Positions 35,295 to 58,816 of a stretch of DNA of 64,000 nucleotides are shown here, piece after piece. The DNA comes from Gordonia jinghuaiqii (GTDB lineage Bacteria; Actinomycetota; Actinomycetes; Mycobacteriales; Mycobacteriaceae). Location: assembly GCF_014041935.1 (NCBI RefSeq), contig NZ_CP059491.1, forward strand, positions 62,001-126,000. Reading direction: 5' to 3'. The position numbers and the translations under genes are program-made. Position 1 is the stretch's first letter. Each line of letters starts with the position of its first letter. The notes under the pieces were generated by a model, which was not told where the DNA came from, did not search any database, and saw only the letters and a program-made list of their open reading frames with translations.

Positions 35295-37508
35295 ATGACC
35301 CAGGAGAAGCCCACGTACTGCCGGATCTGCGAGCCGCTGTGCGGATTGATCGCCACGGTCGACGGTGACCGGTTGATCTCCTTGCGCCCGGACAAACAGC
35401 ACCCGCTGTCGAGCGGGTTCGCGTGTCCCAAGGGGATCGCGTTCACCGAGATCGTCAACGACCCGGACCGCCTTCGCCACCCGCTTCGACGCCGCCCCGA
35501 CGGCGGGTTCGAGCAGATCTCCTGGGACACCGCGCTGGCCGAGATCGGCGACCGGCTCCTCGACGTCCACCGAACCCACGGCGGCAACTCCATCGGGTGG
35601 TACTTCGGCAACCCCGCGACATTCTCGACCGGGCACACCCTGTGGACCGCGGTCTTCATGAACCTTCTCGGGACGCCGCACATCTACTCGGCCGGATCGC
35701 AGGACGTCAACAACCGGTTCGTCGCCAGCCATTTCCTCTACGGGAATCCTGTCGCCGCGCCCATCCCCGACATCAATCGCGTCGACTATCTGATGATCAT
35801 CGGCGCCAACCCGGTCGTGTCCCACGGGAGCGTGATGAGCTCACCGCGTATCCGCGAAGGTCTGCACGCGATCACCGCGCGAGGCGGTACCGTGCTGGTC
35901 GTCGACCCTCGTCACACGGAGACCGCACGCGAATTCGATTGGCTGCCCATCACTCCCGACACCGATGCGCTGTTCCTGCTGTCCTTGCTGCACGTGATGT
36001 TCGACGAGGGGCTCGCCGACGAGAAGCGGCTTCGACGCCGATCGCGCGGCCTCGACGAGCTGAAGGCGACGGTCACGGCGTATGCGCCCGAGGTGACCGC
36101 CGAACGCACCGACGTCCCGCCGGCGCGGGTGCGTGAGATCGCGCGGGCACTCGTCTCCACCGAGCGGGCAGCCGTGTACGGCAGGGTGGGCACGTCGCTG
36201 GGCCGCACCGGTACGCTCACGACGGCGTTGCTGGACATGGTCAACCTGGTCGCGGGCAATCTCGATGTGGTCGGCGGGTCGATGTTCGGGGATCTGGGGG
36301 TTCCCGGTCAGCGGCTGGGGATCGCTGCGCTGCAACGGATGTCACGGTTCCGGTGGTCGGGTCGCCGCAGTCGCGTCGGGGGTCTGCCGCAGGTGCTGGG
36401 TACGGCCCCGGCGTCGTTGATGGCCAAGGAGATCACCACGCCGGGCGCCGGAGCGCTCCGCGCCCTGTTCGTCAGCGCGGGCAATCCGGTACTGTCGGTG
36501 CCCAACGGCGACGAATTACTTTCTGCGCTGGATCAACTCGATCTCATGGTGTCGCTGGACATCTACCGCAACGAGACCAACGCCCACGCCGACTACATCC
36601 TGCCGGCCACCACCATGTACGAGCGCGAGGACTTCCTCCTCCCGTTCCAGGCCCTGTTCACCACACCGTTCAAGCAGGCCACGCGGGCGGTGATCCCGCC
36701 GCAGGGCCAGGCGCGCGAGGAGTGGACGGTGATCAACCACCTCATCGGTGTCCTCGCCCGTGAGAACCTGATGATCCGCATGTTGCACACGGGCAATGCG
36801 CTCGCGGCGCGCATCGGCCGTCCGGTCACTCCGCGACTGGTCTCGGATCTGGTCATCCGCCTCGGAACCGGTGGTGACCGGTTCGGGCTTCGCCGCGGTG
36901 GCCTTACCTATCGCAAGCTCGCCGACGAGCATCCGCACGGCGTGGTGGTGGCCGACAGGCTCGCCGCGGGGCAACTCTCGAAGACGGTGACCTTCGCCGA
37001 TCGCCGGATCCGGTTGAGCGCACCGGAACTGATGGCCGAGATCGGTCGGCTGGCGGTGGTCTCGGACGGGGAGTATCCGTTGCGGCTCATCGGGATGCGC
37101 GAGATCCGTTCGGAGAACAGTTGGCAACACAACGCGCCGATGCTCCTCCGGGGCGGGCGCGCGCATGCAGCCCGGATGCATCCGGACGACGCGACGCCGC
37201 GCGGGCTGGGGGAGGGCGACCTGGTCACCGTGGCGTCCCGGCACGGCCGGATCTCGCTGCCGGTGACCATCACCGAGGACATCAAACCCGGAGTGGTCGC
37301 CATCCCACATGGCTGGGGCCACAACGGTTCCGGGGGCTGGACCCGCGCGAACGCCGCCGCCCCGAACGACCTCGGCGCCGGGGGCGCCAACGTCAACGCA
37401 CTGATCTCCTCCGACCCGGCCGACCTCGAGCGACTGGCCGGCATGGCCAACATGACCGGCGTGCCGATCGAGGTCTCGGCTCGGGCCGCCGACCGAATGG
37501 CGACCTAG
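35295..37508 (+). CDS. Molybdopterin-dependent oxidoreductase with [4Fe-4S] domain
   Basis: This 737-residue enzyme has an N-terminal cluster site CRICEPLCG with a fourth Cys in GFACPKG, then a molybdopterin core (GGNSIGWYFGNP, MIIGANPVVSHGS, VVDPRHTETAREFDW) and a C-terminal MopB_CT domain (GLGEGDLVTVASRHGRISLPV, IPHGWGHNG). It belongs to the cytoplasmic formate dehydrogenase/assimilatory nitrate reductase-like group; no Tat signal and no second subunit nearby. ATG 35295 is the sensible start, since upstream sequence reads as arginine-rich non-coding. The end overlaps the last 4 bp of the convergent ABM-domain gene. Substrate unknown. Confidence 0.85.
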   Translation: MTQEKPTYCRICEPLCGLIATVDGDRLISLRPDKQHPLSSGFACPKGIAFTEIVNDPDRLRHPLRRRPDGGFEQISWDTALAEIGDRLLDVHRTHGGNSIGWYFGNPATFSTGHTLWTAVFMNLLGTPHIYSAGSQDVNNRFVASHFLYGNPVAAPIPDINRVDYLMIIGANPVVSHGSVMSSPRIREGLHAITARGGTVLVVDPRHTETAREFDWLPITPDTDALFLLSLLHVMFDEGLADEKRLRRRSRGLDELKATVTAYAPEVTAERTDVPPARVREIARALVSTERAAVYGRVGTSLGRTGTLTTALLDMVNLVAGNLDVVGGSMFGDLGVPGQRLGIAALQRMSRFRWSGRRSRVGGLPQVLGTAPASLMAKEITTPGAGALRALFVSAGNPVLSVPNGDELLSALDQLDLMVSLDIYRNETNAHADYILPATTMYEREDFLLPFQALFTTPFKQATRAVIPPQGQAREEWTVINHLIGVLARENLMIRMLHTGNALAARIGRPVTPRLVSDLVIRLGTGGDRFGLRRGGLTYRKLADEHPHGVVVADRLAAGQLSKTVTFADRRIRLSAPELMAEIGRLAVVSDGEYPLRLIGMREIRSENSWQHNAPMLLRGGRAHAARMHPDDATPRGLGEGDLVTVASRHGRISLPVTITEDIKPGVVAIPHGWGHNGSGGWTRANAAAPNDLGAGGANVNALISSDPADLERLAGMANMTGVPIEVSARAADRMAT

Positions 37509-37801
37509 ATGGCCGAGTCCTTGGTGAGGTAGGTCAGCTTGGGTGGGCCCGCCAGGATCGCCCCGAGTTCGCCGATCGCACCGGGCCCGTCCCGGAACAC
37601 GCGGTAGGCCTTGTCGTGCTCCATCGACTGCCATTCCTCGGTGATCACCCAGTGGGCGGGGTTCGCCTCGTCGATGAAGACCTCGACCTCCAGGCAGCCG
37701 TCGAAGGCTCGGGTGTCGACGAGTGCCTGCGACATGATCCGTCGGGCGTCGGCGACGGCGTCGGCCTTGAATTCGACGTCGAACAGGACGGTGATGCTCA
37801 T
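37505..37801 (-). CDS. Antibiotic-biosynthesis-monooxygenase (ABM) fold protein
   Basis: This 98-residue ferredoxin-like fold protein has the family landmarks of a CLEVEVFIDEANPAHWVITEEWQS core. Members are cofactor-free quinol oxygenases or small ligand-binding proteins. It is the last gene of the seven-gene minus-strand operon that begins with the cupin at 42872, 32 bp after the ribokinase. In that setting it may process an electron-rich ring intermediate, which is inference. Confidence 0.75.
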   Translation of the reverse strand: MSITVLFDVEFKADAVADARRIMSQALVDTRAFDGCLEVEVFIDEANPAHWVITEEWQSMEHDKAYRVFRDGPGAIGELGAILAGPPKLTYLTKDSAI

Positions 37802-37833
37802 GTGGTTTCCTCCTGGTGTGGCGGGACTGCGGG

Positions 37834-38787
37834 TTACGGATTGTGTTGTGGGGACAGGGAACCCAGGGTCGAGTCGATGTCGGCGGCCGTCGGCATCCCC
37901 GACCGCGCGCCGACGCCGCGCACCGACAGCGTCGCCGCGACGACGCCGCGCCGGCTGGCCTCCACGATCGGGACACCCCGCGCCAGGGTGGCGGCCAGGA
38001 CCCCGTTGAAGGTGTCGCCGGCGCCCGTGGTGTCACGCACCTCGGCGGGCGGCGCCGGGATGGTGGTCGACGTACCGTCGGCCTCGACGACGAGGACACC
38101 GTCGCCACCCAGGGTCACCACGACGGGCGCCTTGGTGCGGGTGACGATCTCGGCGGCCATGTCCGGCACGGGGGCGCTCGCACCGTCGTCGCCGGTCACC
38201 AGCGCGTACAGGTCGCGCAACTCGGAGGCGTTCGGAGTGACGATCGGTGAGAGTGCGAGCAGTCCGTGGATCTCCGGGATGACCGGCGCCGGGTTCAGGA
38301 TGCAACGCATCCCCTTCGCCACCGCGGTCTGAACGGCGGCGACCACGGCCTGCGGCCTGATCTCGGTGCTCACCAGAACGCTACCGGCCCAACCGGAAGC
38401 ACGGTCGACGGCCGAGGAGACCGCGTCCGGGTCCGCGACCGCGTTGGCCCCGGCGCCCACGGCGATCTGGTTCTCACCCTTCGGGTCCACCACGATGAGT
38501 GCCGAACCGGTCGGGGTGCCCTCGGTGATCTCGACGTCGGTGACATCGATCGAATCGGCGCGCAACTCATCGAGGGCGGTCGATCCGGTGGCGTCCGCAC
38601 CGACGGCGCCGCAGTACCGGACGTCGGCGTCGGCGCGGGCCGCCGCGACCGCGGCGTTCGCTCCCTTGCCGCCGCCGTGTCGCTCCACCTTGTCCCCGAC
38701 CACGGTCTCGCCCGGGCCCGGGAGCCGATCGGCGGCGACCACGAGGTCGACGTTGAGCGCGCCCACCACCAGCACACAGGGTTTCAT
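37834..38787 (-). CDS. rbsK: Ribokinase (PfkB family)
   Basis: This 317-residue PfkB kinase has GALNVDLVVAADRLPGPGETV near the N terminus, GGKGANAAVAAARA near residue 39, NPAPVIPEI near 190 and the C-terminal DTTGAGDTFNGVLAATLARG with the catalytic base Asp. Those motifs match ribokinase (ribose to ribose 5-phosphate with ATP). No ribose transporter is adjacent, so the ribose probably arises inside the cell, for instance from the nucleoside hydrolase at 57780. It follows the amidotransferase-like gene by 118 bp containing a strong hairpin, so its level may be set separately. Confidence 0.85.
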   Translation of the reverse strand: MKPCVLVVGALNVDLVVAADRLPGPGETVVGDKVERHGGGKGANAAVAAARADADVRYCGAVGADATGSTALDELRADSIDVTDVEITEGTPTGSALIVVDPKGENQIAVGAGANAVADPDAVSSAVDRASGWAGSVLVSTEIRPQAVVAAVQTAVAKGMRCILNPAPVIPEIHGLLALSPIVTPNASELRDLYALVTGDDGASAPVPDMAAEIVTRTKAPVVVTLGGDGVLVVEADGTSTTIPAPPAEVRDTTGAGDTFNGVLAATLARGVPIVEASRRGVVAATLSVRGVGARSGMPTAADIDSTLGSLSPQHNP

Positions 38788-38905: not shown

Positions 38906-39688
38906 TCACGAAGCGGCGGGATCGGAGTCCGCATGCTTGTTCGCGCTCGCCCAGCCCAGAATCGACGACCACAGGTCGGTGTAGTGCGTCCACGAGACGA
39001 ACTCGGGTGTGGCCCAGTGCGGTGCGAGGTCCGATGCGAAGGCCACCGAGCGGCCCAGACCGAACTCGCCGCCGACCAGCATCGGGTCATTGCCCGCCCG
39101 CACCACGACGTCGGACCCGTCCTTCGCCACGAGCTGGTTGTAACCGAGGAACTCGGGCCAGTCCGCGGGCGTGCCGCCCAGAATCGGATGGTCCGGCTGG
39201 CAGACGTCGACCTTGAGTCCCTCGGACCTCTCGATGCGGTCGTCGTAGGGAAGCATCGTCACCGGCAGGACGTCGGCCAGGGGGCTCATGCCGTACCGTG
39301 CCTTGCCGTCGATCCCGGTGAAGGACAGGTATCCGCCGACCATGAGCAGGCCACCACCACGGCCGACGAAATCCGCGACGAGGCCGAGACGGTTGGGGGA
39401 CTTCTCCGATCGAAGGAAGGTTTCGTCGGGGAGCAGGAACGAGTTGGAGCCGATGTCGGAGATGACGACGACGTCGAACGCGTCGAGTTCTGCTGCGGTG
39501 CGCGGGAATCGGGCGGACACCTCATGGGCACGGATGTAGGTGACGTGATGTCCGGCGTTCGCGAGGCATTCGAGGAAGAAGGTGGCGCCCTCCTCGTACT
39601 CGGTGTTGTGGAACTGGTCGAAGCCCTTCATGTGGATGGTGTGCTTCACCCAGGATTCGCCGACGACCAGGACTTCCAGACCGCTCAT
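38906..39688 (-). CDS. Glutamine amidotransferase-like (ThuA/DUF1355-type) protein
   Basis: This 260-residue protein has a flavodoxin-like class I amidotransferase fold: VLVVGESWVKHTIHMKGFDQF at the start, FDVVVISDIGSN near 80, GLLMVGGYLSFTGIDGKARYG near 125 and a C-terminal GRSVAFASDLAPHWATPEF. The usual nucleophilic Cys of true amidotransferases is replaced by GGY, so glutaminase activity is unlikely. Such proteins are common in sugar and nucleoside catabolic clusters; the exact reaction is unknown. Fifth gene of the operon from 42872. Confidence 0.7.
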   Translation of the reverse strand: MSGLEVLVVGESWVKHTIHMKGFDQFHNTEYEEGATFFLECLANAGHHVTYIRAHEVSARFPRTAAELDAFDVVVISDIGSNSFLLPDETFLRSEKSPNRLGLVADFVGRGGGLLMVGGYLSFTGIDGKARYGMSPLADVLPVTMLPYDDRIERSEGLKVDVCQPDHPILGGTPADWPEFLGYNQLVAKDGSDVVVRAGNDPMLVGGEFGLGRSVAFASDLAPHWATPEFVSWTHYTDLWSSILGWASANKHADSDPAAS

Positions 39689-39786: not shown

Positions 39787-40503
39787 TCAGTGGAGCGGGT
39801 TGCGCCGGTCGGCACGCGTGGTGGTGAGCAGGCGGCGCCCGATCTCATAGGCCTCGCGGATGTCCTCGCCGAGGTAGCGGTCGGTGGCCAGTTCCGCGAT
39901 CACGGGGTCGGAGTTCACCGCGACCGAGTTGGGCAGCCACCGGAACAGGTCGAGGTCCGAGGACGAATCCCCATAGGCGACACAGTTCTCCGGGGAGATG
40001 GAGTGGCGCTCCATGACCTGGGCGGTGATGGACACCTTCTCCTCGGGTGCGATGGTCGCACCGTCGGCGAACGGCTGATCGATCTCCAGGGCTGACCCGT
40101 AGGTCTCGTGCACACCCCACTGCTGGAGTCTCCGCACGAAGAAGATGGGGGACTGGGAGATGACGATCGCGATCTCGCCGCGGGATCGGATGTCGGCGAA
40201 GGTCTCCGCGACCCCCGACATCCAGCGCGCGCCGTGGAATGCGGCGTCGAGCTCGCTGTCGGTGGCGCCGCCGCACAGGTCCAGGAGGACCTGCCAGAAC
40301 TCGCGTTCGGTGATCTCGTCGGCGAGCCAGCGCTGCTCGATGGCCAGCCCTTCGTCGAGTTTGCCGAAGTGCCGGGCGAGCTCGATTGTGGATGCGCCAC
40401 GGAGGAGGGTGCCGTCCATGTCGAACACGTGCAGCCGTCGCGGGTGCGCGGCTGGATCATCCACGGGGGTCGGTGGTTGCATGCTCGTGAGTTCCTGTGT
40501 CAT
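39787..40503 (-). CDS. HAD-superfamily phosphatase (SerB/IB-like)
   Basis: This 238-residue phosphatase has motif I HVFDMDGTLL with nucleophile Asp28 and Asp30, motif II IAIVISQSP, and motif IV AYGDSSSDLDLF. The helical cap between motifs I and II is of the C1 type seen in phosphoserine phosphatases and nucleotidases. It hydrolyses a small phosphomonoester in the cytoplasm. Its place in an operon with ribokinase and monooxygenase, in a regulon with a nucleoside hydrolase, suggests dephosphorylation of a nucleotide intermediate (inference). A second ATG at 40482 could be the start. Confidence 0.75.
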   Translation of the reverse strand: MTQELTSMQPPTPVDDPAAHPRRLHVFDMDGTLLRGASTIELARHFGKLDEGLAIEQRWLADEITEREFWQVLLDLCGGATDSELDAAFHGARWMSGVAETFADIRSRGEIAIVISQSPIFFVRRLQQWGVHETYGSALEIDQPFADGATIAPEEKVSITAQVMERHSISPENCVAYGDSSSDLDLFRWLPNSVAVNSDPVIAELATDRYLGEDIREAYEIGRRLLTTTRADRRNPLH

Positions 40504-40541: not shown

Positions 40542-41087
40542 TCACTGCGCATCGTGAACATGCGCGGGAAATCTGAGGAGGTCGGAGATCGGTGGCTGCG
40601 GGAGCACTCGCATGTCCCAGCCATCGATGTGCTCGGGCACGATCCGGTACCAGCGGCGAGCGGCGACGTTGCCGGCGCTGAAGTAGTACTCGAGATGCGG
40701 GTGGCCGACGTGGAAGTACTTCTCCGCGACGAGGTCGAGCAGCTGCTCGACGTCCTCGGGGTCGGTCACCGGCTCGGCGTGACCCTCGAGAGTCACCGCG
40801 CGGACGCTGGCGAGTTCGTCGCCCTGGTCGATGAGCGCGGACACCGTCCCGCCGGCGTCGATCGTCTCGATGTGCCGATGGTCGGGCGTCGTCGTCTGTC
40901 CCGGGTCGCCGACGGTGGGATCGAGTGCGATGTAGATCGCGTCGTCCACCGTGACGAAGACGACGGGGGAGATGTGGATCCGCCCGCCGGAAGGCGCGGT
41001 GGCGAGCCGGAGCCAGAGCGCCTTCTCCAGGAATCCTTGGCGTTTCGCACCGTCGAGCGGGGCGAGGTGGCCCAGAGTGATCGGCAT
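40542..41087 (-). CDS. Pyridoxamine 5'-phosphate oxidase-like flavin-binding protein
   Basis: This 181-residue split-barrel protein shows LWLRLATAPSGGRIHISPVVFVTVDDAIYIALD and TLEGHAEPVTDPEDVEQLL, typical of the PPOX/FMN- or F420-binding group. It lacks features that would identify true PdxH. Relatives are F420-dependent reductases, FMN-binding reductases or heme degraders. It is the third gene of the operon and could reduce an oxidised ring intermediate. ATG 41087 is preceded by GAGGAC. Confidence 0.7.
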   Translation of the reverse strand: MPITLGHLAPLDGAKRQGFLEKALWLRLATAPSGGRIHISPVVFVTVDDAIYIALDPTVGDPGQTTTPDHRHIETIDAGGTVSALIDQGDELASVRAVTLEGHAEPVTDPEDVEQLLDLVAEKYFHVGHPHLEYYFSAGNVAARRWYRIVPEHIDGWDMRVLPQPPISDLLRFPAHVHDAQ

Positions 41088-41174: not shown

Positions 41175-42269
41175 TCAGGCGAAGGCGGGGAGAACTTCCT
41201 TGGCCATGAACTTCAGGTTCTCCAGCACCGCCTCGTTGGGCTGTCCCATCGCAACCAGGCAGACGATGTGGTCGACGCCGATCTCTTCGTACGCCTTGAA
41301 CCGCTCGATCATCCGATCGGGGGTGGTGAGGATCGGGTCGGCGTACTTCTCGTAGAGCCCGTCACGGGAAATCGCTTCGGACTCCGGGTACACCCGGCCG
41401 GCCCGGATGTAGTCGTCGACCCGGTCGCCCACGCCGCGGGCTGCGAGGCGGCCTTCCTTGGTCTGGGTCTTTCCACTGCCCTTCACGAGTGCCTTGTAGT
41501 GGTTGTACTCGTTGAGGATGTCGCCGAAGTACTCCTGGGCCTCGTCCTCGGTGCGGCCGAGCCAGGTGTGACGCAGTGCCATGACCTCACCGCGGGGCTT
41601 ACCGCTGGCCGCGGCCGCGTCGTTGAAGGTCTGGACGAGCTCCTCGAGATCACCGTAGGGCTCGAAGTTGCCGTGGTTGGGGGCCGTCAGCAGGTTCAGG
41701 CCCTGCTCGGCAACCCGCTTGACTCCGTCGACACTCTGGGAGGCCACCCAGAGATCGGGGGACGGCTGGGTGACCGGCTTGGGCACGATCGTGGTCTCGG
41801 GGAAAGAGAAGTACTTCCCGTCGTAGGTCAGGTCGTCCTCGACCCAGGCCCGGCGGATGATCTCGAGGGCCTCCTCGTAGATGTCGCGTGCTTCCGCGGG
41901 GTTGATGCCGAGTCGGTCCAGCTGGTAGCGGCTGCCGCCGCGTGCCACTCCGATGCTCATCCGGCCGGGTGCCAGGTGGTCGAGGAGTGCCATTTCCGAG
42001 GCAACCAGGAGCGGATGGTAGTTGGGCAGCACCACGACGCCAGGCATGATCTTCAGTCGCTTTGTGCGGGTGGCGGCGGCCGCACTGAAGGCGAGCGACG
42101 ACGGGTTGGTCACATAGTTCTGGAACTGGTTCTCATTGATCATGACGCCTTCGAAACCGAGGTCCTCGGCGGCATCGACGATCGACAGCATGTCGTTGAG
42201 CAGGTCGGTCCAGGGCCGGCTCATGTCGGGGTAGAAGAAGGGCGTCGTGACCCAGATCTTGAGTGACAT
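41175..42269 (-). CDS. Luciferase-like (LLM) flavin-dependent monooxygenase
   Basis: This 364-residue TIM-barrel protein has KIWVTTPFFYPD at the start, AEDLGFEGVMINENQF near 35, LKIMPGVVVLPNYHPLLVASEMALLDHLAPGRMSIGVARGG near 75-115 and VDHIVCLVAMGQ near the end. That is the bacterial luciferase/alkanal monooxygenase pattern that uses reduced FMN supplied by a reductase. The reductase at 52346 carries the same operator upstream of its operon, making a plausible two-component oxygenase. ATG 42269 is preferred over 42275 because AGGAGA lies 7 bp before it. F420 use cannot be excluded. Confidence 0.85.
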   Translation of the reverse strand: MSLKIWVTTPFFYPDMSRPWTDLLNDMLSIVDAAEDLGFEGVMINENQFQNYVTNPSSLAFSAAAATRTKRLKIMPGVVVLPNYHPLLVASEMALLDHLAPGRMSIGVARGGSRYQLDRLGINPAEARDIYEEALEIIRRAWVEDDLTYDGKYFSFPETTIVPKPVTQPSPDLWVASQSVDGVKRVAEQGLNLLTAPNHGNFEPYGDLEELVQTFNDAAAASGKPRGEVMALRHTWLGRTEDEAQEYFGDILNEYNHYKALVKGSGKTQTKEGRLAARGVGDRVDDYIRAGRVYPESEAISRDGLYEKYADPILTTPDRMIERFKAYEEIGVDHIVCLVAMGQPNEAVLENLKFMAKEVLPAFA

Positions 42270-42371
42270 GGTCATGTCTCCTAACTGTGGTGTGGTCGAC
42301 TCGTCCGGAGGACGGAAGTCGGTGACTGACGCTCCGATCCGGAAGGCGGAGCAAGCTTTTCGAGAGGCTGG

Positions 42372-42872
42372 TCAGCGTCGAAGCGCGATGAGGGTGTCGC
42401 TGTAGGACTCGTCGTCACCGGTGTGGCGCCAGCCGGACGGCATCACCGGTCCGACGGTCAAGACCAGCGTGGCTTCGACGCCGACCGCCCGGCACGTGTA
42501 CCGGTATCCGGCAGGCGCCCAGAAGAAATCCCCGGCCTCGACCAGGTAATCGACTGTGACGTCGTCGATGTCGGTGACCAGCATCTGGAATCTGCCGCTC
42601 AGGCAGCCGAGGGTCTCGTCCCAGCTCGTGGCCTGCCACGTGGTGTCGTCCGCGTCGGCGCGCATGAAGCTGATGCCCTGGCTGAAGTGTCGGGAGCCGT
42701 CGCGTTCCCGGGAGAGGAACACACCGGAGTCGGCGCCGGTCGCGAAGGTGATCCGCGGCATCTCGGCGATCTCGGTAGATGCGAACCGCCGGGGAAACCG
42801 GTTCTCCTGCTTGGGAGCCGACGCGCGGATCGAGGCTCCTGCGGCGCGCCTGGACGCGATGCTCGAGCTCAT
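42372..42872 (-). CDS. Cupin-domain protein, first gene of the catabolic operon
   Basis: This 166-residue protein has a basic, disordered start of about 30 residues and a cupin barrel (GSRHFSQGISFMRAD, TLGCLSGRFQMLVTD, YLVEAGDFFWAPAGYRYTCRAVG). The usual His-rich metal motif is degenerate: no HxH in motif 1. It may therefore bind a ligand without catalysis. ATG 42872 has AGGAG 5 bp upstream. Two copies of the regulon operator lie at 42898-42911 and 42996-43009, just upstream, so this gene opens the operon down to 37505. Confidence 0.7.
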   Translation of the reverse strand: MSSSIASRRAAGASIRASAPKQENRFPRRFASTEIAEMPRITFATGADSGVFLSRERDGSRHFSQGISFMRADADDTTWQATSWDETLGCLSGRFQMLVTDIDDVTVDYLVEAGDFFWAPAGYRYTCRAVGVEATLVLTVGPVMPSGWRHTGDDESYSDTLIALRR

Positions 42873-42897
42873 GGTCACTCCTGTCTGGTCCTGGCCT

Positions 42898-42911
42898 GTG
42901 AATCGTTTCTA
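42898..42911 (-). promoter_or_regulatory. Regulon operator O1
   Basis: GTGAATC|GTTTCTA matches the shared 14-bp motif (ideal TAGAAWC|GWTTCTA, C|G centre). It lies 26 bp upstream of the cupin start codon. Confidence 0.7.
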
Positions 42912-50653: not shown

Positions 50654-50716
50654 CTAATCCGTGAGAATTTGGCTCTACGTATGGAACCATACAGTTCACG
50701 GTGCTATCCTCGCAGG

Positions 50717-50730
50717 TAGAAACGTTACAA
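50717..50730 (+). promoter_or_regulatory. Regulon operator O7
   Basis: TAGAAAC|GTTACAA is a second copy 77 bp downstream of O6 and 86 bp before the PRPP synthetase start, seven helical turns apart, which suits a looped repressor. Confidence 0.65.
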
Positions 50731-50816
50731 CCGCCTCGTATGGCGAAATCCCCTCAACAGTGCCCACCGGTTCCCGCAGACGACCTGCGCAACGTGACGA
50801 AGACAAGGTTGGTTCC

Positions 50817-51809
50817 ATGACTCAGTCCATGCGACTCGGAGACGAGAAGCAACTGATGCTGTTCTCCGGACGTGCGAATCCTGCACTGACCCAAGCCATT
50901 GCGGCCGACATCGGTGTCGACGTCGGTCCGGTCACGTTGAAAACCTTCTCCAACGGAGAGGTCTACTGTCGATTCGACGAGTCGGTCCGCGGGGCGGATG
51001 TCTTCATCGTGCAACCCATGTGCGGTAACGCCGAGTCGGGGGTCAACGCCAACGACGCGTTGATGGAGCTGCTCGTCATGGTCGACGCGGCGGTCGGTGC
51101 CAGTGCTCATCGAGTGGTGGCTGTGACGCCGTGGTACGGATACTCCCGACAGGACAAGAAATCTGCTGCGCGTGAGCCGATCTCGGCCCGTGTCGTGGCC
51201 AGGACCCTGGAGGCCGTGGGTGTCGACCGGGTCCTCACGATGGACCTTCACGCGGGCCAGTTGCAGGGGTTCTTCGGAAAGCCGGTCGACCATATGACCG
51301 CTCTGATGATGCTGGCCGACCATTTCTCCGGCCTCGACGACGATCTGGTCGTCGTCGCGCCGGACGCCGGACGGGTGAAACTCAACAAGCAGTTCGCGAC
51401 CCGGCTGGGCGCGGGCCTGGCGATTCTCGACAAGGAACGTCCGGTGCAGCAGGTCGCCGAGATCACCCACGTCATCGGCGACGTGAGCGGCAAGACCGCA
51501 ATCATCGTCGACGACATGATCGACACCGCGGGAACGCTTCGCGCGGCCGGCGAGGCGGTGGTGAACGCCGGTGCGCGCCGGGTCTTCGCGGCGGCGACGC
51601 ATCCGGTGTTCAGCGGGCGTGCCTTCGAGAACCTCGCTGCCGCACCCTTCGAGAAGATCGTCGTCACCGACACCATTCCGCTGTCAGCCGGTGCGCCGAC
51701 GAATGTCGAGGTCGTCTCGTGTGCCCCGCTGCTCGCCGACTCGATCCGTCGAATCTTCACCAACGACTCCGTGAGCGCCGTCTTCGGCGGCCAGAACCAC
51801 ATCTTCTGA
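50817..51809 (+). CDS. prs: Ribose-phosphate pyrophosphokinase (class I PRPP synthetase)
   Basis: This 330-residue enzyme has KTFSNGEVYCRFDESVRG, YGYSRQDKKSAAREPISARVVA, the metal site DLHAGQLQGFF, APDAGRVKLNKQFA and the PRPP loop IIVDDMIDTAGTL. It makes PRPP from ribose 5-phosphate and ATP. Actinobacteria keep a housekeeping prs next to glmU, so this is probably a pathway-dedicated second copy. ATG 50817 has AAGG upstream; the longer reading runs through O7 and is rejected. Its operators are those in front of the NAMPT-like gene, which would use its PRPP, and of the operon encoding ribokinase, which would supply its substrate. Confidence 0.9.
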   Translation: MTQSMRLGDEKQLMLFSGRANPALTQAIAADIGVDVGPVTLKTFSNGEVYCRFDESVRGADVFIVQPMCGNAESGVNANDALMELLVMVDAAVGASAHRVVAVTPWYGYSRQDKKSAAREPISARVVARTLEAVGVDRVLTMDLHAGQLQGFFGKPVDHMTALMMLADHFSGLDDDLVVVAPDAGRVKLNKQFATRLGAGLAILDKERPVQQVAEITHVIGDVSGKTAIIVDDMIDTAGTLRAAGEAVVNAGARRVFAAATHPVFSGRAFENLAAAPFEKIVVTDTIPLSAGAPTNVEVVSCAPLLADSIRRIFTNDSVSAVFGGQNHIF

Positions 51810-51977: not shown

Positions 51978-52232
51978 ATGGATGTACGAATCGATGGCTG
52001 TGACGCCGTCTCGGTGGGCGATGCCGACACCGAGGACGTGCGGATCGTAACTCACGACAAGCTCCTTCCGTATCTACCGGGAATCCTCCGGCTCAACGGC
52101 ATCGGCTGGGTAGAGGGTACGACCGTCCACCTCGACCCCAGTTGGTCCGGATGGTGCGAGATCGCCTCCGCGCAGGGGCGCAAGGTGACCATCCCCGAAA
52201 CCGCAACCATCTTCACTACTCCGGTGACGTGA
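51978..52232 (+). CDS. Small protein of unknown function
   Basis: This 84-residue acidic protein has an excellent ribosome site (AAGGAAAGGAG) and sits in the prs operon before the flavin reductase. It has no signal peptide, membrane segment or cysteine pair (one Cys near the start, one near residue 60). Alternating hydrophobic residues (VRIVTHDKLLPYLP, RKVTIPETATIF) suggest a small beta-barrel. Unrecognised; its fixed place suggests a part in the pathway. Confidence 0.6.
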   Translation: MDVRIDGCDAVSVGDADTEDVRIVTHDKLLPYLPGILRLNGIGWVEGTTVHLDPSWSGWCEIASAQGRKVTIPETATIFTTPVT

Positions 52233-52345
52233 GGCGACAGGACGCATTCGATGGCAGTGAGCCCGAGTCGGCGCATCCGGATGAAGCCGGACCGCTCCGG
52301 GCAACGGCCGCACGACGGCTCAACGCACGAAGTCAGGAGACAGCA

Positions 52346-52840
52346 ATGATCGATCAGGACACGTTCAAGAACATCATGGCCGCCGCGCCGGGACCGGCGA
52401 CGGTGGTCACGGCCACCGGCGCAGACGGCCGGCATCAGGGACTGACGATGTCTGCCGTCTGTTCGGTGTCGCTCGATCCCCCGCTCGTCCTGGCCTGCCT
52501 GGACCACGGGTCGAATACACTGGCGGCAGTGCGCGAATCAGGTTCGTTCACCGTCAACTACATCGCCCGTGGCCACGAGGACATCGCGATGCGCTTCGCG
52601 GTCAAGTCGGGGTCGAAATTCAACGGCCTGGCCTTCGAGGTCTTCGATGACAACTCCGGTGGCCCCGTCCTGCACGACCACGTCGCCGCGTATGCGGTGT
52701 GCCGGGTCGAGCAGATGCACACCTCCGGGGATCACACGATCGTCATCGGCCACGTCGTGCGGGGAGCGGCGCACCGCGACAGCCACGCTCTCGCCTACGC
52801 ACGACGAGAGTTCTTCACCGCGGCCACCGCGCAGGTCTGA
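52346..52840 (+). CDS. Flavin reductase (HpaC-like)
   Basis: This 164-residue split-barrel protein has PGPATVVTATGADGRHQGLTMSAVCSVSLDPPLVLACL, GSFTVNY and the C-terminal HTIVIGHVV, the pattern of NAD(P)H:FMN reductases that serve two-component oxygenases. It probably supplies reduced flavin to the luciferase-like monooxygenase at 41175-42269. ATG 52346 follows AGGAGA. It is the fourth frame of the prs operon, 113 bp after the 84-residue protein. Confidence 0.85.
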   Translation: MIDQDTFKNIMAAAPGPATVVTATGADGRHQGLTMSAVCSVSLDPPLVLACLDHGSNTLAAVRESGSFTVNYIARGHEDIAMRFAVKSGSKFNGLAFEVFDDNSGGPVLHDHVAAYAVCRVEQMHTSGDHTIVIGHVVRGAAHRDSHALAYARREFFTAATAQV

Positions 52841-52966: not shown

Positions 52967-53311
52967 TCAGGCGTCGTTTTCGATCCAGAAGGACACCTTG
53001 CGGACCGGTTCGATCGTCTTCCAGGTGTTGCGCTTGCCGGCGTACAGCCGGACGATGTCGCCGGGGCCGGCGACGAAGGTCTCACCTGTGTCGTCGAAGC
53101 TGATCTCCGCGCGTCCCTCGAGGATGACGAAGATCTCGTCGGCGGCCTCGCCCCCGATGTAGCCGAGCTCGGCGCCCCAGACGCCGACCTTGCCGCCGGC
53201 GAAGTCGGAGATGAAGTGGGCCCCGGTCGACACCGGGGTACCGTCGTCGAGGCTGACGTACCTTTCGGGTTGAAGTTCGGCGGCGAATACGTTTCCGAGA
53301 AGTTGACTCAT
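52967..53311 (-). CDS. Cupin-fold protein (DUF861/EutQ-like)
   Basis: This 114-residue single-cupin protein has GVWGAELGYIGGEAADEIFVILEGRAEISFDDTGE, a GDIVRLYAGKRNTWKTIEPVRKVSFWI closing segment and the cupin_3 signature W-x2-x-E-P-x-RK. Members include ureidoglycine aminohydrolase and EutQ. Operator O8 overlaps its start codon and there is no Shine-Dalgarno-like sequence and no other Met, so the mRNA may be leaderless with the operator on the promoter. It is divergent from the phosphotriesterase-homology gene. Confidence 0.75.
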   Translation of the reverse strand: MSQLLGNVFAAELQPERYVSLDDGTPVSTGAHFISDFAGGKVGVWGAELGYIGGEAADEIFVILEGRAEISFDDTGETFVAGPGDIVRLYAGKRNTWKTIEPVRKVSFWIENDA

Positions 53312-53324: not shown

Positions 53325-53480
53325 ACCCAGCTGGGGTATCGCCGGCGACTGAACTCCGTCGGTTGGATGCGTGAGGCGGCGACTTTCGGCCTGAAAAGTG
53401 TTTGTAGCCAGGGAACAACGAGCTATAGGTGCGTTCGGGACTGGTCTGGCCAGGCGGGCAGATGGACGATCAGCGCCAAC

Positions 53481-53494
53481 TGGAAACAATTCTA
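53481..53494 (+). promoter_or_regulatory. Regulon operator O9
   Basis: TGGAAAC|AATTCTA lies 43 bp upstream of the start codon at 53537. It would control the phosphotriesterase-homology gene and the LacI regulator behind it, giving autoregulation. Confidence 0.7.
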
Positions 53495-53536
53495 TTCTTC
53501 TGGCCTTCGCGGGTCGGAACGGATAATGTTCCTTCC

Positions 53537-54691
53537 ATGAGCGCAGTTCAGGTCACGACCGTCCTCGGTCCGATCGACGTCGAGGACCTCGGGATGACGT
53601 TGATGCACGAGCATCTCGCCTGCGATTGGACCACACGCTTCGTCGAGCCGGCGGATGAGGATGCGCGGAAGCTGTACCACACGCCGATGGACGCATCGCT
53701 GCACTGGAAACTGGCCGAGGACCCGTTCTGCTGTCTCGACGCCGGACGGCTCGACGATCCCGATGGGATCATCGAGGAGTTGGGGCACTTCACCGTCGCG
53801 GGCGGCCGGACGGTCGTCGACTGCACCAACTCGCAGATCGGCCGCGACGTGCGGGCGCTGGAGCGGATATCGCGAGAAGCCGGCGTCAACGTGATCATGG
53901 GCTCCGGGTGGTATGTGCACGGTTTCCATGAGAGTCACAAGGCGTCGGCGGGTGTCGACGAGCTCGTCGAGGACCTGATGTCAGAGTTCGTCGACGGCGC
54001 GGACGGTACGTCGGCGAAGCCCGGCATCATCGGCGAGATCGGAGTGTCGCCGCAGTTCACCGACGCCGAGAAGGTCCGCCTGCGAGCCGCGAGTCGGGTC
54101 CAGCGGGAGGTGGGGGTGCCGTTGATGATCCATCTGCCAGGGTGGAAACGCCGGGCCCCGGAGGTGCTCGACATCGTCTTGGGCGAAGGTGTCGCGCCGG
54201 AGGCTGTGGTGCTCTGCCACATGGATCCGTCAGGCGACGACGCCGAGTACCAGCGCTCCGTCGCCGAACTGGGCGTCTGGCTCGAGTTCGACATGATCGG
54301 CATGCCGTTCTACTACGCAGGCGAAGGGCAGTCCCCGGCACCCGAGCAGACCGCCTCGGCCGTCGCTCGGCTGATCGCAGACGGCCACGGTGAACGCCTC
54401 CTGCTGAGCCATGACATGGCGTCGAAGGGTATGTGGACACGGCACGGTGGCAACGGGATCGGCTATGTCCCACAGATGTTCCTGCCCCGGCTCGAGCGCC
54501 ACGGTGTCTCCGCCGAGCAGGCCGCGACACTGCTCACCGAGAACCCCGCCGCCCTGTTTGCTCTCAGCGCCGCGTCGGCGGACGGTGGTGCGGCCGATGT
54601 GCGAGGCCGCTCGACCTGGGTACGAGGGGATCAACGCGCGGTCCCGGGGCGTCGCCCACCGGTCGGCGATACTGTCGTAGATGCGAGGTAG
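53537..54691 (+). CDS. Phosphotriesterase-homology amidohydrolase (PHP-like)
   Basis: This 384-residue enzyme has HEH in LMHEHLACDW, GSGWYVHGFHESHK near 118, GIIGEIGVSP where Glu replaces the usual carboxylated Lys, then MIHLPGW, LCHMDPS and LLSHDMAS. The Glu bridge is the E. coli PHP (YhfV) arrangement, distinct from the Lys-type lactonase at 25247. It should hydrolyse a lactone, amide, imide or phosphoester using two metals. The last 40 residues are low-complexity. The LacI regulator starts 35 bp after its stop, so the two are an operon under O9. Confidence 0.8.
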   Translation: MSAVQVTTVLGPIDVEDLGMTLMHEHLACDWTTRFVEPADEDARKLYHTPMDASLHWKLAEDPFCCLDAGRLDDPDGIIEELGHFTVAGGRTVVDCTNSQIGRDVRALERISREAGVNVIMGSGWYVHGFHESHKASAGVDELVEDLMSEFVDGADGTSAKPGIIGEIGVSPQFTDAEKVRLRAASRVQREVGVPLMIHLPGWKRRAPEVLDIVLGEGVAPEAVVLCHMDPSGDDAEYQRSVAELGVWLEFDMIGMPFYYAGEGQSPAPEQTASAVARLIADGHGERLLLSHDMASKGMWTRHGGNGIGYVPQMFLPRLERHGVSAEQAATLLTENPAALFALSAASADGGAADVRGRSTWVRGDQRAVPGRRPPVGDTVVDAR

Positions 54692-54726
54692 CCGTCCGAC
54701 CGTCGGAATGGCTGAGGAGGCATGAC

Positions 54727-55749
54727 GTGAAGCAACCGGGCCCCAAACACAAGCGCCCGACCATAAAGGACGTCGCCGAACATGCGCGCGTATCGGTCAG
54801 CACGGTCAGTTACGTGCTCAACGACTCCGGCCCGGTCGCCCCGGAACGGCGCAACCGTGTGCTCGACGCCGTTCGCGTGCTCGAGTACTCGCCGAACGAG
54901 TCGGCGCGAAACCTCAAGCGGCGCGGTGCATCGCGAATCGGCATGGTCGTTCCTGAACTGACGAATCAGTTCTTCGCGATGGTGACCGAGGGCGTTCAGC
55001 GGGCCGCTTCGGCCCGCGACGTCCTCGTTGTACTCGTCATCCCCGACGCCGCTGCGCGGTCGGAGGAAGAGCAGGCCAAACTGTTGCGCAGCCAACGCAT
55101 CGACGGTGTCGTGTACCTGTCGGGTACCGGTTCGATGCCGGCCGCGAGCTATGAGCTCGCCCGGTCGGGACCGGTGGTTCTCGTCGACGAGCAGATCCCC
55201 GGCATCGATCTGCCGGCTGTGGTCTGCGATTCCCGCAAGGGGGCCCGTGAGGCGGCCATGCACGTGCTGGATCACGGGCACCGCCAGATCGCGGTGATCG
55301 GTGGACCCCCGGCGCTCTGGACCGCGCAGCAACGACTCGCCGGATACCGAGAGGCATTCGCGGGCGTTGGATTGGACCCGGACGCCGTGCCGGTGTATCA
55401 CGGTGACTACCAGCAGGACTCGGGTTACGAGGCGGCCAAGGCGGCGCTCATCGCGAACCCCCGGCCGTCGGCGCTCATCTGTGCCAACGACCTGATGGCC
55501 GTGGGCGCGATGGAATACTGTCGCGAGGCCGGACTCCAGATGCCCGACGAGGTCAGCATCGTCGGATTCGACGACCTCGCCCTCTCCCGACTTCTCACCC
55601 CGCGTCTCACCAGCGTGCGACAACCGGCCCACGACATGGGGTTTCGCGCCGCCAACGTCTTGTTCGACCTGATCGAGAACGACGAGCCGGAACAACTGAG
55701 CATTCTGCCGACGACCCTGCAGATTCGCTCGTCGGTGTCCCAGCACTGA
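54727..55749 (+). CDS. LacI-family transcriptional regulator, probable regulon controller
   Basis: This 340-residue repressor has an N-terminal helix-turn-helix and hinge (TIKDVAEHARVSVSTVSYVLN, then YSPNESARNLKRR) and a periplasmic-binding-protein-like effector domain (IGMVVPELTNQFFAMVTEGV, GVVYLSGTGSM, SALICANDLMAVGAMEY, VSIVGFDDLALSRLLTPRLTSVRQP). The hinge leucine that enters the operator minor groove at a central CG is compatible with NLKRR. Start is GTG 54727 with GAGGAGG 6 bp upstream; an ATG at 54722 is out of frame. As the only LacI protein here it is the best candidate for the C|G-centred operators. Relatives sense sugars, purines or nucleosides, so a riboside ligand is plausible. 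Confidence 0.85.
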   Translation: MKQPGPKHKRPTIKDVAEHARVSVSTVSYVLNDSGPVAPERRNRVLDAVRVLEYSPNESARNLKRRGASRIGMVVPELTNQFFAMVTEGVQRAASARDVLVVLVIPDAAARSEEEQAKLLRSQRIDGVVYLSGTGSMPAASYELARSGPVVLVDEQIPGIDLPAVVCDSRKGAREAAMHVLDHGHRQIAVIGGPPALWTAQQRLAGYREAFAGVGLDPDAVPVYHGDYQQDSGYEAAKAALIANPRPSALICANDLMAVGAMEYCREAGLQMPDEVSIVGFDDLALSRLLTPRLTSVRQPAHDMGFRAANVLFDLIENDEPEQLSILPTTLQIRSSVSQH

Positions 55750-55873
55750 TCGCCGTCGCGTTCACCCGCTGACACGTTCGGCGGGCGTCGCCAGAGCAGA
55801 CAACCGTCCGGGCCGTCGAATCGACGGTCCGGTTCGGTGCCGTGCCCTGATGTTGAGTACCGAAAGGAAAGTC

Positions 55874-56863
55874 ATGAGTTTCAAGGCTCTGGTGGCCGAG
55901 CGTGCCGACGACCGGATCGTCACCGCGCTGAAAGATCTCGACGAGCAGGATCTGATGCCGGGTGAGGTGAGTATCGACGTCGAGTACTCGACGGTGAACT
56001 TCAAGGACGCGATGGCCATCACGGGCCTCGCCGAGGTGATCGAGACATTCCCGCTCGTCCCGGGCATTGACCTGTCGGGGACCGTCAGCGCGACGGATCG
56101 GGAGGACCTCGGCGTGGGTGACCGGGTGGTCGTCAACGGATGGGGGCTGAGCATGACCCATCACGGTGGCTTCGCCCAGCGCGCGCGGGTCCCGGGTGAG
56201 TGGGCAATCCGCCTGCCGGACACCATCTCCACCCGTGACGCCATGGCGATCGGGACGGCCGGCTATACCGCGATGCTCTCAGTGCTGGCACTCGAACGGG
56301 GCGGTGTCACGCCGGATTGCGGTGAGATCGTCGTGACCGGCGCCAACGGCGGAGTCGGCTCGATCGCCATCGCACTGCTCTCCGATCTCGGTTACGACGT
56401 CATCGCCTCGACCGGTCGTCCGGAGGAGGCGGACTATCTGCGTTCCCTCGGCGCCTCGGCGATCATCGACCGTGCGACGCTTTCCGACGCGAGCGAGCCG
56501 CTCGCGGAGGAGCGATGGGCCGGTGCCGTGGATTCCGTGGGCAGCCACACCCTGGCAAATGTGCTGGCGCACACGAAGATGCGTGGCGTAGTCGCCGCCT
56601 GTGGACTTGCCCAGGGCACCGACCTGCCGGGTTCGGTGCTGCCATTCATCCTCCGCGGAGTGACCCTGGCCGGAATCGACTCGGTGCACGCTCCGGTCGC
56701 GATCCGAGAAGAGGCCTGGTCCCGTCTGGCGACGGATCTCGACCTCGCCAAGCTGGCCGCCACCGCGCGGGTGGTGGGCCTGGCGGACGTCCCTGAGGTG
56801 GCCGCGGACCTGCTGGCCGGCCAGATCAGAGGGCGAACCGTCGTCGATGTGCAAGACGTCTAG
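55874..56863 (+). CDS. acuI: AcuI/YhdH-type acryloyl-CoA reductase (MDR family)
   Basis: This 329-residue zinc-free medium-chain reductase has YSTVNFKDAMAITGLAEVIETFPLVPGIDLSGTV near 47, GWGLSMTHHGGFAQ and the NADPH motif VTGANGGVGSIA near 155. The family reduces acryloyl-CoA to propionyl-CoA, sparing the cell a toxic electrophile. It follows the LacI gene by 124 bp with no visible operator of its own. Its presence suggests that the catabolic route ends in a three-carbon or enoyl-CoA unit, which is inference. AAGGAAA precedes ATG 55874. Confidence 0.8.
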   Translation: MSFKALVAERADDRIVTALKDLDEQDLMPGEVSIDVEYSTVNFKDAMAITGLAEVIETFPLVPGIDLSGTVSATDREDLGVGDRVVVNGWGLSMTHHGGFAQRARVPGEWAIRLPDTISTRDAMAIGTAGYTAMLSVLALERGGVTPDCGEIVVTGANGGVGSIAIALLSDLGYDVIASTGRPEEADYLRSLGASAIIDRATLSDASEPLAEERWAGAVDSVGSHTLANVLAHTKMRGVVAACGLAQGTDLPGSVLPFILRGVTLAGIDSVHAPVAIREEAWSRLATDLDLAKLAATARVVGLADVPEVAADLLAGQIRGRTVVDVQDV

Positions 56864-56933: not shown

Positions 56934-57584
56934 TTAGGGTGGGTCGACGCCCAGTCCGTCGATGACCATGTCGGCGAACGTCTCCCCGATCTCGCGGGTC
57001 GACAGCGGGCCGTCGAGGTCCAACCAGACATGGGACCATGCGCCCATGCCGATGATCCCGAACGCCACGACCTTCGGGGGACCCGACGCGCGGAACCGTC
57101 CTTCGTCGATTCCCCGGGCGATCACGTCGACGAAGATCCCCTCGAACTCGCTGCGTTTGCGTTCGATCTCCTCGAAGAACCGGCCGGCAAGAAACCGGCG
57201 TTCCTGGAGGAATACCGCGGTCTCTGATTTGTAGATCGACATGGGTTCGATCAGTGCTTCGACGATCAGCCGTCGCAGCGCGGTGGCCAGGTCCTGGTCC
57301 TTCTCCGCCATCACGGCGCGTGCACGGCCGAGCTGGTAGTGGATGAACTCGTCATGAACCCGGCGAAGGAGATCCTCTTTGTTGTCGAAGTGGTGGTAGA
57401 AGGCGCCTTTGGTGAGCCCCGCCGCATCGACGACGCTCTGAACCGAGGTCGCGGCGTATCCGTTCTGCTCGAACAGCGTCACGGCACTCTTCAGCAGGGC
57501 GGCGCGGGCACGCTCCGGATCGCGGACGCGGCCGGTGGCCGACGCCGAGGGAGCGCGCTTGCCCCGGGGCTGTCTGGTCGCCAC
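56934..57584 (-). CDS. TetR-family transcriptional regulator
   Basis: This 216-residue protein has a basic disordered start, then the HTH AALLKSAVTLFEQNGYAATSVQSVVDAAGLTKGAFYHHFDNKEDLL at about 28-73 and a helical ligand domain. TKGAFYHHF resembles the KstR2/acyl-CoA-responsive group. It converges on the AcuI-like gene. It could bind the palindrome at 45170-45183 or act on acyl-CoA genes elsewhere; the window does not decide. Confidence 0.85.
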   Translation of the reverse strand: MATRQPRGKRAPSASATGRVRDPERARAALLKSAVTLFEQNGYAATSVQSVVDAAGLTKGAFYHHFDNKEDLLRRVHDEFIHYQLGRARAVMAEKDQDLATALRRLIVEALIEPMSIYKSETAVFLQERRFLAGRFFEEIERKRSEFEGIFVDVIARGIDEGRFRASGPPKVVAFGIIGMGAWSHVWLDLDGPLSTREIGETFADMVIDGLGVDPP

Positions 57585-57779: not shown

Positions 57780-58748
57780 TCACACCGCTGCGGACGGACG
57801 AGCCGGGCATGAGGGATCGAGTGTCGTCATCAGCAGGGGGGCGAACGGGGCCGTCGACGCGAGTGCGATCCGGTGGCCGGGTGTTGCCGACTCGTTGCTG
57901 GTGGCATCCACGTCGACCAGTGTGCGTCCACGATGTATGCCGTCGATCTCCACCCGGATCGTGCATCGCGGCGCGTGCGAGAGTCCGATCGAACCGATCG
58001 CGATCGCGGTCGCGAGCGGGTCGTGGAGTAGACATTTGGTGCCATCGAACTCCGGATGCCCGTCCAGGTAGTGGTCGAGCATCAGAGCGATGGTGTGTAC
58101 GTCCGGGTCGGCGGACTCTCGGAGGAGACCGACCTCGGCCCTGGACAGGCTGTGGTGATTGGTGATGTCCAATGGGACGAGCATCAAGTCATCCCACGGT
58201 GTGGACAGAACCTGCTGGGCGGCAACGGGATCGGCGTAAATGTTGGCTTCGGCGAACTGCGTGATGTTGCCGGCGACGTCGTGGGCGCCTCCCATGATGG
58301 TTATGCCACCGACCAGCTGGGGCAGCCGAGGTTCGAGAGACAAGGCGACCGCGATGTTCGTCAACGGACCGAGTGCGATGATCCGCATCCGTCGGCCGAG
58401 GCGGTGTGCGAGATCGACCAGCCTGTCAGGCGCGGTCATCTCGTCGAACGGACGGGCCGACGCGGACAGGTCCAATCCGGCGATCCCGTTGGGGCCGTGA
58501 ATGAACTGTGCGCCACCCCAGAACCGTCCGCGCACCGGCTCCTGTCGTCCAATCGCCACGGGGATGTCCGCTCGTCCGATCAGCGCGAGCAACCGGCGCG
58601 CATTCTCTGCCGCTTGGAACACGCCGACATTGCCGGCGACCGCGCCGACCGAGGTGAGGGAGACACTGCTCCGGGTGAGATAGATGAGCGCAAGGGCGTC
58701 GTCGATGCCCGGGTCGCAGTCCACGTAGTAGACGTGTTCGTCCCTCAT
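57780..58748 (-). CDS. Inosine/uridine-type nucleoside hydrolase
   Basis: This 322-residue enzyme has the calcium/ribose motif DCDPGIDDALAL at 10-21, AVAGNVGVFQAAENARRLLALIG near 35, GPLTNIAVAL near 127, IMGGAHDVAGNITQFAEANIYADP near 150 and HDPLA near the C-terminal third, as in the IU-nucleoside hydrolase family. It splits an N-glycosidic bond to give free base and ribose. No nucleoside transporter is adjacent. Operator O10 lies 55 bp upstream, linking it to the regulon. I infer that it releases the modified heterocycle from ribose. Confidence 0.85.
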   Translation of the reverse strand: MRDEHVYYVDCDPGIDDALALIYLTRSSVSLTSVGAVAGNVGVFQAAENARRLLALIGRADIPVAIGRQEPVRGRFWGGAQFIHGPNGIAGLDLSASARPFDEMTAPDRLVDLAHRLGRRMRIIALGPLTNIAVALSLEPRLPQLVGGITIMGGAHDVAGNITQFAEANIYADPVAAQQVLSTPWDDLMLVPLDITNHHSLSRAEVGLLRESADPDVHTIALMLDHYLDGHPEFDGTKCLLHDPLATAIAIGSIGLSHAPRCTIRVEIDGIHRGRTLVDVDATSNESATPGHRIALASTAPFAPLLMTTLDPSCPARPSAAV

Positions 58749-58802
58749 GGTCCTCCTTGTGCGGTCGTGGCAACCGCCGAGCGATCGGGTGCCGAGCGTC
58801 GG

Positions 58803-58816
58803 TTGAAACGATTCTA
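58803..58816 (-). promoter_or_regulatory. Regulon operator O10
   Basis: TTGAAAC|GATTCTA lies 55 bp upstream of the nucleoside hydrolase start and 12 bp from a hairpin that ends the neighbouring transcript. Confidence 0.75.

Follow-up and report, generated by a model that had tools for sequence, protein, structure and literature searches.

The window analysed here is a stretch of 64 kb (64,000 nucleotides) of the genome of Gordonia jinghuaiqii, and the subject of this report is the gene block at positions 37505..58816, in which a NAMPT-like phosphoribosyltransferase is encoded next to enzymes of apparently catabolic function. Genes were identified by Pfam and NCBIfam scans; the predicted start positions are the output of a separate gene caller run. 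The handling of phosphoribose is represented by the NAMPT-like enzyme itself (45406..46872, minus strand, predicted start 46842; PF04095, 102.3 bits; PF18127, 70.9 bits), Prs, the synthetase of phosphoribosyl pyrophosphate (PRPP) (50661..51809, plus strand, predicted start 50829; TIGR01251, 356.7 against a cut-off of 113), a HAD-IB phosphatase (39787..40503, minus strand, predicted start 40464; TIGR01488, 58.8 against a cut-off of 45; DMDGT motif), a nucleoside hydrolase (57780..58748, minus strand; PF01156, 227 bits; DCDPGIDD motif) and a ribokinase-type PfkB kinase (37834..38787, minus strand, predicted start 38775; PF00294, 197 bits; GAGD motif).

Oxygenation is represented by genes of a luciferase-like flavin monooxygenase (LLM; 41175..42275, minus strand; PF00296, 197 bits), a flavin reductase (52142..52840, plus strand, predicted start 52346; PF01613, 119 bits) and a HAPMO-like Baeyer–Villiger monooxygenase (BVMO; 43114..45093, minus strand), assigned by Pfam and by the names of its relatives, many of which, among 120 listed of 2176, are named 4-hydroxyacetophenone monooxygenase by JGI. 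Further genes encode an aldehyde dehydrogenase (ALDH; 47487..48947, plus strand; PF00171, 514 bits), an AMP-forming acyl-coenzyme A (CoA) ligase (48893..50512, plus strand, predicted start 48986; PF00501, PF13193) and an AcuI-type acrylyl-CoA reductase (55850..56863, plus strand, predicted start 55874; NF051456, 470.9 against a cut-off of 440). All genes listed for this block in the earlier note, which proposed a phosphoribose-carrier cycle for the breakdown of an N-heterocycle, were found in it, the kinase scoring 240.8 with TIGR02152, under the NCBIfam ribokinase cut-off of 299.65.

Members of the block beyond that list are a PF07090 GATase1-like protein, a conserved cluster member (38906..39688, minus strand; 339 bits), a PPOX split-barrel protein resembling F420/flavin mononucleotide (FMN) reductases (40542..41087, minus strand; PF01243; profile match Rv2991, 1rfe), a cupin protein (42372..42878, minus strand), an EutQ-type cupin (52967..53311, minus strand; PF05899), a phosphotriesterase-family (PTE) hydrolase, a candidate lactonase or amidohydrolase (53429..54691, plus strand, predicted start 53537; PF02126, 197.7 bits; PDB 3k2g, 3rhg), and regulators of the LacI family (54433..55749, plus strand, predicted start 54727; PF00356, PF13377) and the TetR family (56934..57584, minus strand; PF00440, PF17932). 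The cupin at 42372..42878 gave no match with Pfam alone; its profile matches are cupins of the oxalate decarboxylase kind and its predicted fold is that of a cupin. A Foldseek search with the predicted model of the PPOX protein (mean pLDDT 80) returned 1rfe as the best match (E 9.5e-09), further matches including F420, FMN and heme proteins, and the model bears out a split-barrel fold. The genome also contains two CofD-family genes over cut-off. The block begins with a gene of an ABM-domain small monooxygenase-like protein (37505..37801, minus strand; PF03992, 38.6 bits).

Analysis of related clusters was based on named genomes scanned with six NAMPTs; of 96 stretches confirmed, the 80 best were kept, and these gave 77 loci. 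Core loci, with NAMPT of at least 47% identity, number 62; the control consists of 15 loci of Pseudomonadota, the NAMPTs of which were taken as canonical. Counts for 54 loci leave out eight core loci shorter than 12 kb, the identity thresholds for members were chosen after the first percentages had been seen, and the loci are partly non-independent (L017 and L070 overlap, as do L044 and L049, and several species contribute two or more loci). In the 54 core loci that reach 12 kb, genes were found for HAD phosphatase in 48, LacI in 40, the PF07090 protein in 38, Prs in 31, ribokinase in 31, cupin in 27, nucleoside hydrolase in 26, PPOX protein in 25 and LOG-type phosphoribohydrolase in 13. The first five of these families, together with cupin, nucleoside hydrolase and PPOX, were each absent from all 15 control loci. 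Since the controls are all Pseudomonadota with presumably canonical NAMPTs, a control from the same genome was added: in 20 stretches of 20 kb from the Gordonia genome the same eight families were found in none, flavin reductase in three, CoA ligase in two and ALDH in one. Co-occurrence in related genomes had been set beforehand as a test of the proposed cycle, and its ribose-handling genes do recur among the 54 core loci and in none of the 15 controls. BVMO was found in 0 of the 62 core loci at the threshold used.

A second cluster is present in the same genome, with genes for NAMPT (60% identity), Prs, LacI, HAD, LLM, PTE and AcuI, and one congener carries another such cluster. The genome holds three Prs over cut-off, the third lying outside both NAMPT clusters. 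Such NAMPTs are rare, occurring in 2 of 59 genomes of the genus and, at E <= 1e-100, in 4 of 397 genomes of the order, this genome included in both counts. Beside the second cluster (L009:7104-9239) are a Zeta-toxin-like, a ParD-like and two methionine sulfoxide reductase genes. Pseudonocardia dioxanivorans CB1190 (L017, L070, L042) carries three NAMPT genes in a span of roughly 37 kb, and two of these show no difference over the aligned rows.

The NAMPT-like enzyme resembles the NAMPT of nicotinamide adenine dinucleotide (NAD) salvage in having both Pfam domains, NAMPT_N (PF18127) and NAPRTase (PF04095), and the PRPP and catalytic residues, but differs from it in that positions 193, 217, 242 and 244 are replaced and in having catabolic neighbours and a Prs of its own. 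Residues are numbered as in human NAMPT via an alignment of 82 rows (15 controls and 67 others), and their functional roles (PRPP binding, catalytic histidine, base pocket) are taken by us to be those of the human enzyme. R40, R196, H247, R311, D313, G353 and D354 are invariant in 82/82 rows, the window enzyme keeping H247, R196, R311, D313, G353 and D354. Position 193 is phenylalanine in 15/15 controls and tyrosine in 67/67 others, position 217 is glycine in controls versus glutamine in others, and positions 242 and 244 shift too. Against the canonical nicotinamide pocket, the window enzyme carries F193Y, G217Q, D219E, V242T and A244Y. In the 39 rows of the cluster types A and B defined below, V242 is replaced by glycine in 34 and A244 by asparagine in 37; the two copies of the Gordonia genome have T/Y and S/F at these positions. 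A search with the NAMPT of genome G607 gave 557 relatives at E <= 1e-150 among 7999 scored, and in the 120 of them that were listed Y193 with Q217 is present in 120/120 and G242 with N244 in 118/120. Judged from the alignment, the base pocket of cluster NAMPTs appears consistently altered, as if rebuilt, with the PRPP and catalytic site intact. In the NAMPT tree the controls all lie to the same side of a 100/100 branch, and 62 cluster rows group together at 100/100. The window enzyme and the second copy fall with rows of Pseudonocardia and Actinomycetospora that come from PTE/AKR clusters (100/96).

Regulation is represented by a putative operator, GAAACGTTTC, of which five occurrences with at most one mismatch were found in the window against 0.86 expected; none of 100 shuffles reached five. 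A perfect site lies at 47011..47020, between the genes of NAMPT (169 bp) and ALDH (467 bp). Sites with one mismatch lie at 42900..42909, 22 bp upstream of the predicted start of the cupin operon, at 45110..45119, 44 bp upstream of that of BVMO, at 50719..50728, 101 bp upstream of that of Prs, and at 58805..58814, 57 bp upstream of that of nucleoside hydrolase. No such site (at most one mismatch) was found upstream of the PTE, LacI and AcuI genes of the window. Genome-wide there are five perfect sites. Three belong to the two NAMPT clusters, another falls within a predicted gene, and the fifth separates a LacI-like from a permease-like gene (L123:1835-4364, both named by eye), the latter of which may encode a transporter belonging to the regulon.

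Across loci, with one mononucleotide shuffle per locus as background, 115 operator-like sites were found in 60 core loci versus 13 after shuffling, and 11 in 17 control loci versus 8; this split, with L066 and L072 counted as controls, is slightly unlike that of 62 and 15. Outside called genes lie 102 of the 115, an upper figure because few genes are called in some loci (in the lower-GC loci L035, L040, L043 and L021 few or none, so that sites there count as outside genes), and sites in neighbouring species are shared by descent. A site is present upstream of 20/58 NAMPT, 5/13 LLM, 6/23 cupin, 9/47 ALDH, 3/23 nucleoside hydrolase, 1/44 HAD and 2/38 Prs genes, of 13/394 other genes, and in 4/878 upstream regions after shuffling. 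Over 96 different sites, the bases flanking the search string are palindromic as well, with T at 0.65 and A at 0.56 to one side and the mirror image to the other. We infer that the LacI-family protein, for which the nearest NCBIfam models are CytR and RbsR, all under cut-off, binds sites of this type and thereby may control at least five units of the window. The shared operators claimed earlier are matched by these putative sites, upstream of five window units and recurring across clusters; co-regulation, as judged by operator sites only, is supported by the excess in the window, the genome-wide distribution and the recurrence among clusters.

Two chemistry modules were distinguished among the long core loci: type A, with cupin and PPOX and without LLM (23 loci), and type B, with LLM (14 loci), 17 loci belonging to neither. 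Since cupin, PPOX and LLM define the types, these genes are no evidence for them. Type A loci contain genes for glutaryl-CoA dehydrogenase (7), class III CoA-transferase (10), Fgd-like LLM (8) and LOG (7). In type B loci the first three were found in none and LOG in two, and genes for NIPSNAP (11), amidohydrolase (7) and PTE (5) are present; in loci of neither type the counts for glutaryl-CoA dehydrogenase, class III CoA-transferase, Fgd-like LLM and LOG are 3, 2, 0 and 4. The prediction of glutarate was written after Pfam had shown acyl-CoA dehydrogenase and CoA-transferase, and was then tested; the first PDB matches of the type A acyl-CoA dehydrogenase are glutaryl-CoA dehydrogenases. One type B aldehyde dehydrogenase is SSADH-like (552.4 against a cut-off of 646.35), and a second groups with it at identity of at least 55%. 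The window is a hybrid of the two modules, with the cupin of type A and the LLM of type B, to which BVMO, CoA ligase and AcuI are added. In the alphaproteobacterium Methyloligella sp. GL2 (L044, L049), genes of FbiC-like protein, CofD, CofC, F420 ligase and Fgd-like proteins were observed; the same region encodes glutaryl-CoA dehydrogenase, CoA-transferase and a pair of NAMPTs that are nearly identical.

Going by source names, 2 of 82 relatives of the window LLM (identity 71% and 67%) bear the JGI name trigonelline monooxygenase; the others are alkanesulfonate monooxygenase-like, plain LLM or nameless. Genomes G607 and G569 encode an LLM 100% identical to P0028, which is recorded for Rhodococcus pyridinivorans. 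Their cluster contains genes for NAMPT, Prs, ribokinase, LacI, PF07090 protein, HAD, flavin reductase, NIPSNAP, ALDH and amidohydrolase, as well as perfect operator sites; nucleoside hydrolase was unmatched within the stretches taken.

Gene content, pocket residues and operator sites suggest, with a probability of about 0.72, that the window holds one of a family of catabolic clusters that activate pyridine-type heterocycles with a reusable phosphoribose handle. The NAMPT-like enzyme would use PRPP to quaternise the ring nitrogen, the product being an N-phosphoribosyl-pyridinium. In type A, hydride of reduced F420 would attack the electron-poor ring via the PPOX protein, and hydrolysis would lead to a C5 dialdehyde, glutarate and glutaryl-CoA. 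Trigonelline is a natural quaternary pyridinium, the ring of which is opened between C2 and C3 by its monooxygenase; in type B, a flavin-peroxide of LLM would attack the tagged ring with the same C2–C3 opening. Aldehyde dehydrogenases and CoA enzymes would feed the carbon chain into central metabolism. Ribose 5-phosphate would be freed directly, or via phosphatase, nucleoside hydrolase and ribokinase, and turned back into PRPP by the cluster's own Prs. Once the ring is open, the tag may also exit as phosphoribosylamine or a formyl derivative, in which case phosphatase and nucleoside hydrolase might serve a side route or repair. The tag cycle of the earlier note is supported in this form by co-occurrence and operator sites, with reduction now standing beside oxygenation; for its dephosphorylate-and-cut leg the genes are present, and its place in the main route is what may change.

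It seems rather likely that this PRPP-fed route is modular, opening N-heterocycles by F420-type reduction or flavin oxygenation, and the window would be a 3-alkylpyridine version ending in propionyl-CoA. The substrate is a guess, made because C2–C3 opening of a 3-alkylpyridine would give a ketone, which would account for BVMO, CoA ligase and AcuI. The product would be a keto-aldehyde, which in the case of 3-methylpyridine is levulinic aldehyde; levulinate would then be converted via a BVMO ester, 3-hydroxypropionate and acrylyl-CoA to propionyl-CoA. Findings on levulinate were reportedly made in Gordonia nitida by Lee et al. in 2001.

Among the alternatives, a real tag on a ring other than pyridine (imidazole, pyrimidine, azole or a nicotinamide-like base) is unlikely, though it survives best. 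It is favoured by the difference in pocket sub-type at 242/244 between type A and B rows and the Gordonia copies and by the fact that only 7 to 10 of 23 type A loci carry glutarate genes; genes for C5 dicarboxylate in type A, the name trigonelline monooxygenase of two LLM relatives and the occurrence of a type B cluster in G607 and G569, whose LLM equals the one recorded for R. pyridinivorans, speak against it. Less likely still is that NAMPT and Prs only raise the NAD supply for redox-heavy catabolism and that the ribose enzymes salvage nucleosides. The window NAMPT does pass the NCBIfam nicotinate phosphoribosyltransferase model, and D219 is kept in all type A, B and other rows, but a separate PncB-type nicotinate phosphoribosyltransferase is encoded in the Gordonia genome apart from the clusters, and of 8 cluster genomes checked, 7 hold a PncB-type enzyme that passes the cut-off. 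Moreover, the base pocket is changed in all 67 non-control rows, phosphatase, nucleoside hydrolase and LOG (in 13 of 54 long loci) could undo the formation of nicotinamide mononucleotide (NMN), and no NMN adenylyltransferase domain was found by Pfam among the 30 window proteins scanned. The NAD boost, raised in the earlier note as a simpler alternative, is weakened by the separate PncB-type enzyme and the missing adenylyltransferase. A regulon for ribosylated compounds imported whole, with NAMPT incidental or reversed, would fit the CytR- and RbsR-like regulator and the nucleoside hydrolase with its ribokinase-type kinase, but is very improbable, as it needs neither Prs, present in 31/54 long loci, nor a NAMPT with an intact PRPP site.

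Several findings weigh against the phosphoribose handle on a pyridine. D219, presumably the residue binding the amide of nicotinamide, is kept in 64/64 type A, B and other rows and is glutamate in the window, so that the base may carry an amide-like group; this conservation speaks against a bare ring, and the score of the window NAMPT with the NCBI nicotinate model is 456.4 against 405. NAMPTs of types A and B intermingle in the tree, the window NAMPT is on a long branch with its placement flagged unsure by the tree program, and two second NAMPTs or relatives (that of L072 and the second copy of L040) fall beside the controls. Most type A loci lack glutarate genes, and so does the window, in the region of which no glutaryl-CoA dehydrogenase was found; NCBIfam ranks FadE first for the type A dehydrogenase, neither this enzyme nor the CoA-transferase is over any cut-off, and the scanned aldehyde dehydrogenases are over the cut-off of no curated model. 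The basis of the 3-alkylpyridine route is a single cluster plus proposed chemistry, as BVMO was found in none of the core loci and belongs to a large family, and in the 120 listed relatives of BVMO no tie to NAMPT clusters was readable. The PF07090 protein, cupins and NIPSNAP are left without a step. According to PMC10005059, pyridine supported growth of R. rhodochrous IEGM 757 and R. ruber IEGM 231 but not of R. pyridinivorans IEGM 1137, the comparison being by species name only.

Of the known systems, trigonelline degradation (Tgn) would share a luciferase-like two-component monooxygenase acting on a quaternary pyridinium, but trigonelline is already quaternary, whereas here the cell would quaternise the nitrogen with PRPP. 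The C–P lyase pathway uses ribose phosphate as a carrier and regenerates PRPP, but acts on phosphonates with Phn enzymes, and no Phn family was found by Pfam among the 30 window proteins. Both pyridine routes are described from physiology in the background section of PMC3637104; the glutarate genes of some type A clusters and the ring-opening kind of monooxygenase in type B resemble them, but that section mentions no nucleotide step. F420-dependent xenobiotic reduction (PMC8498797) is similar in its split-barrel protein, and some clusters carry Fgd and F420 synthesis genes, but the clusters are linked to a phosphoribosyltransferase, a word absent from the main text of that paper.

Other identities were considered and set aside. 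LLM, flavin reductase and ribokinase would presumably fit riboflavin lyase (RcaA), but no chain so named was found among 35 PDB matches of LLM, and NAMPT and Prs would be left unexplained. RutA-type opening of uracil was rejected on a weak RutA match (31.8 against a cut-off of 498.3), and a biosynthetic cluster was dropped because relatives hold glutaryl-CoA dehydrogenase, CoA-transferase and Prs. The stretch 33548-37508, just outside the block, encodes another FMO-like protein and a molybdopterin oxidoreductase; further away, at 3841-21564, is an open reading frame of 5907 codons.

No phosphoribose-tag catabolic pathway of this kind was found among the results listed for the open-licence literature, a description elsewhere being possible. 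Among the relatives listed, cluster NAMPTs that bear names are called nicotinate or nicotinamide phosphoribosyltransferase, with the exception of one "unannotated protein", and this naming may mislead the annotation of NAD metabolism. If the phosphoribose handle is real, an inert aromatic ring would be activated by a nucleotide instead of by hydroxylation or CoA, and candidate genes would be available for the old N–C2 and C2–C3 pyridine routes. F420 would gain a new role, and many proteins filed as NAD-salvage enzymes may be catabolic instead, one query having 557 relatives.

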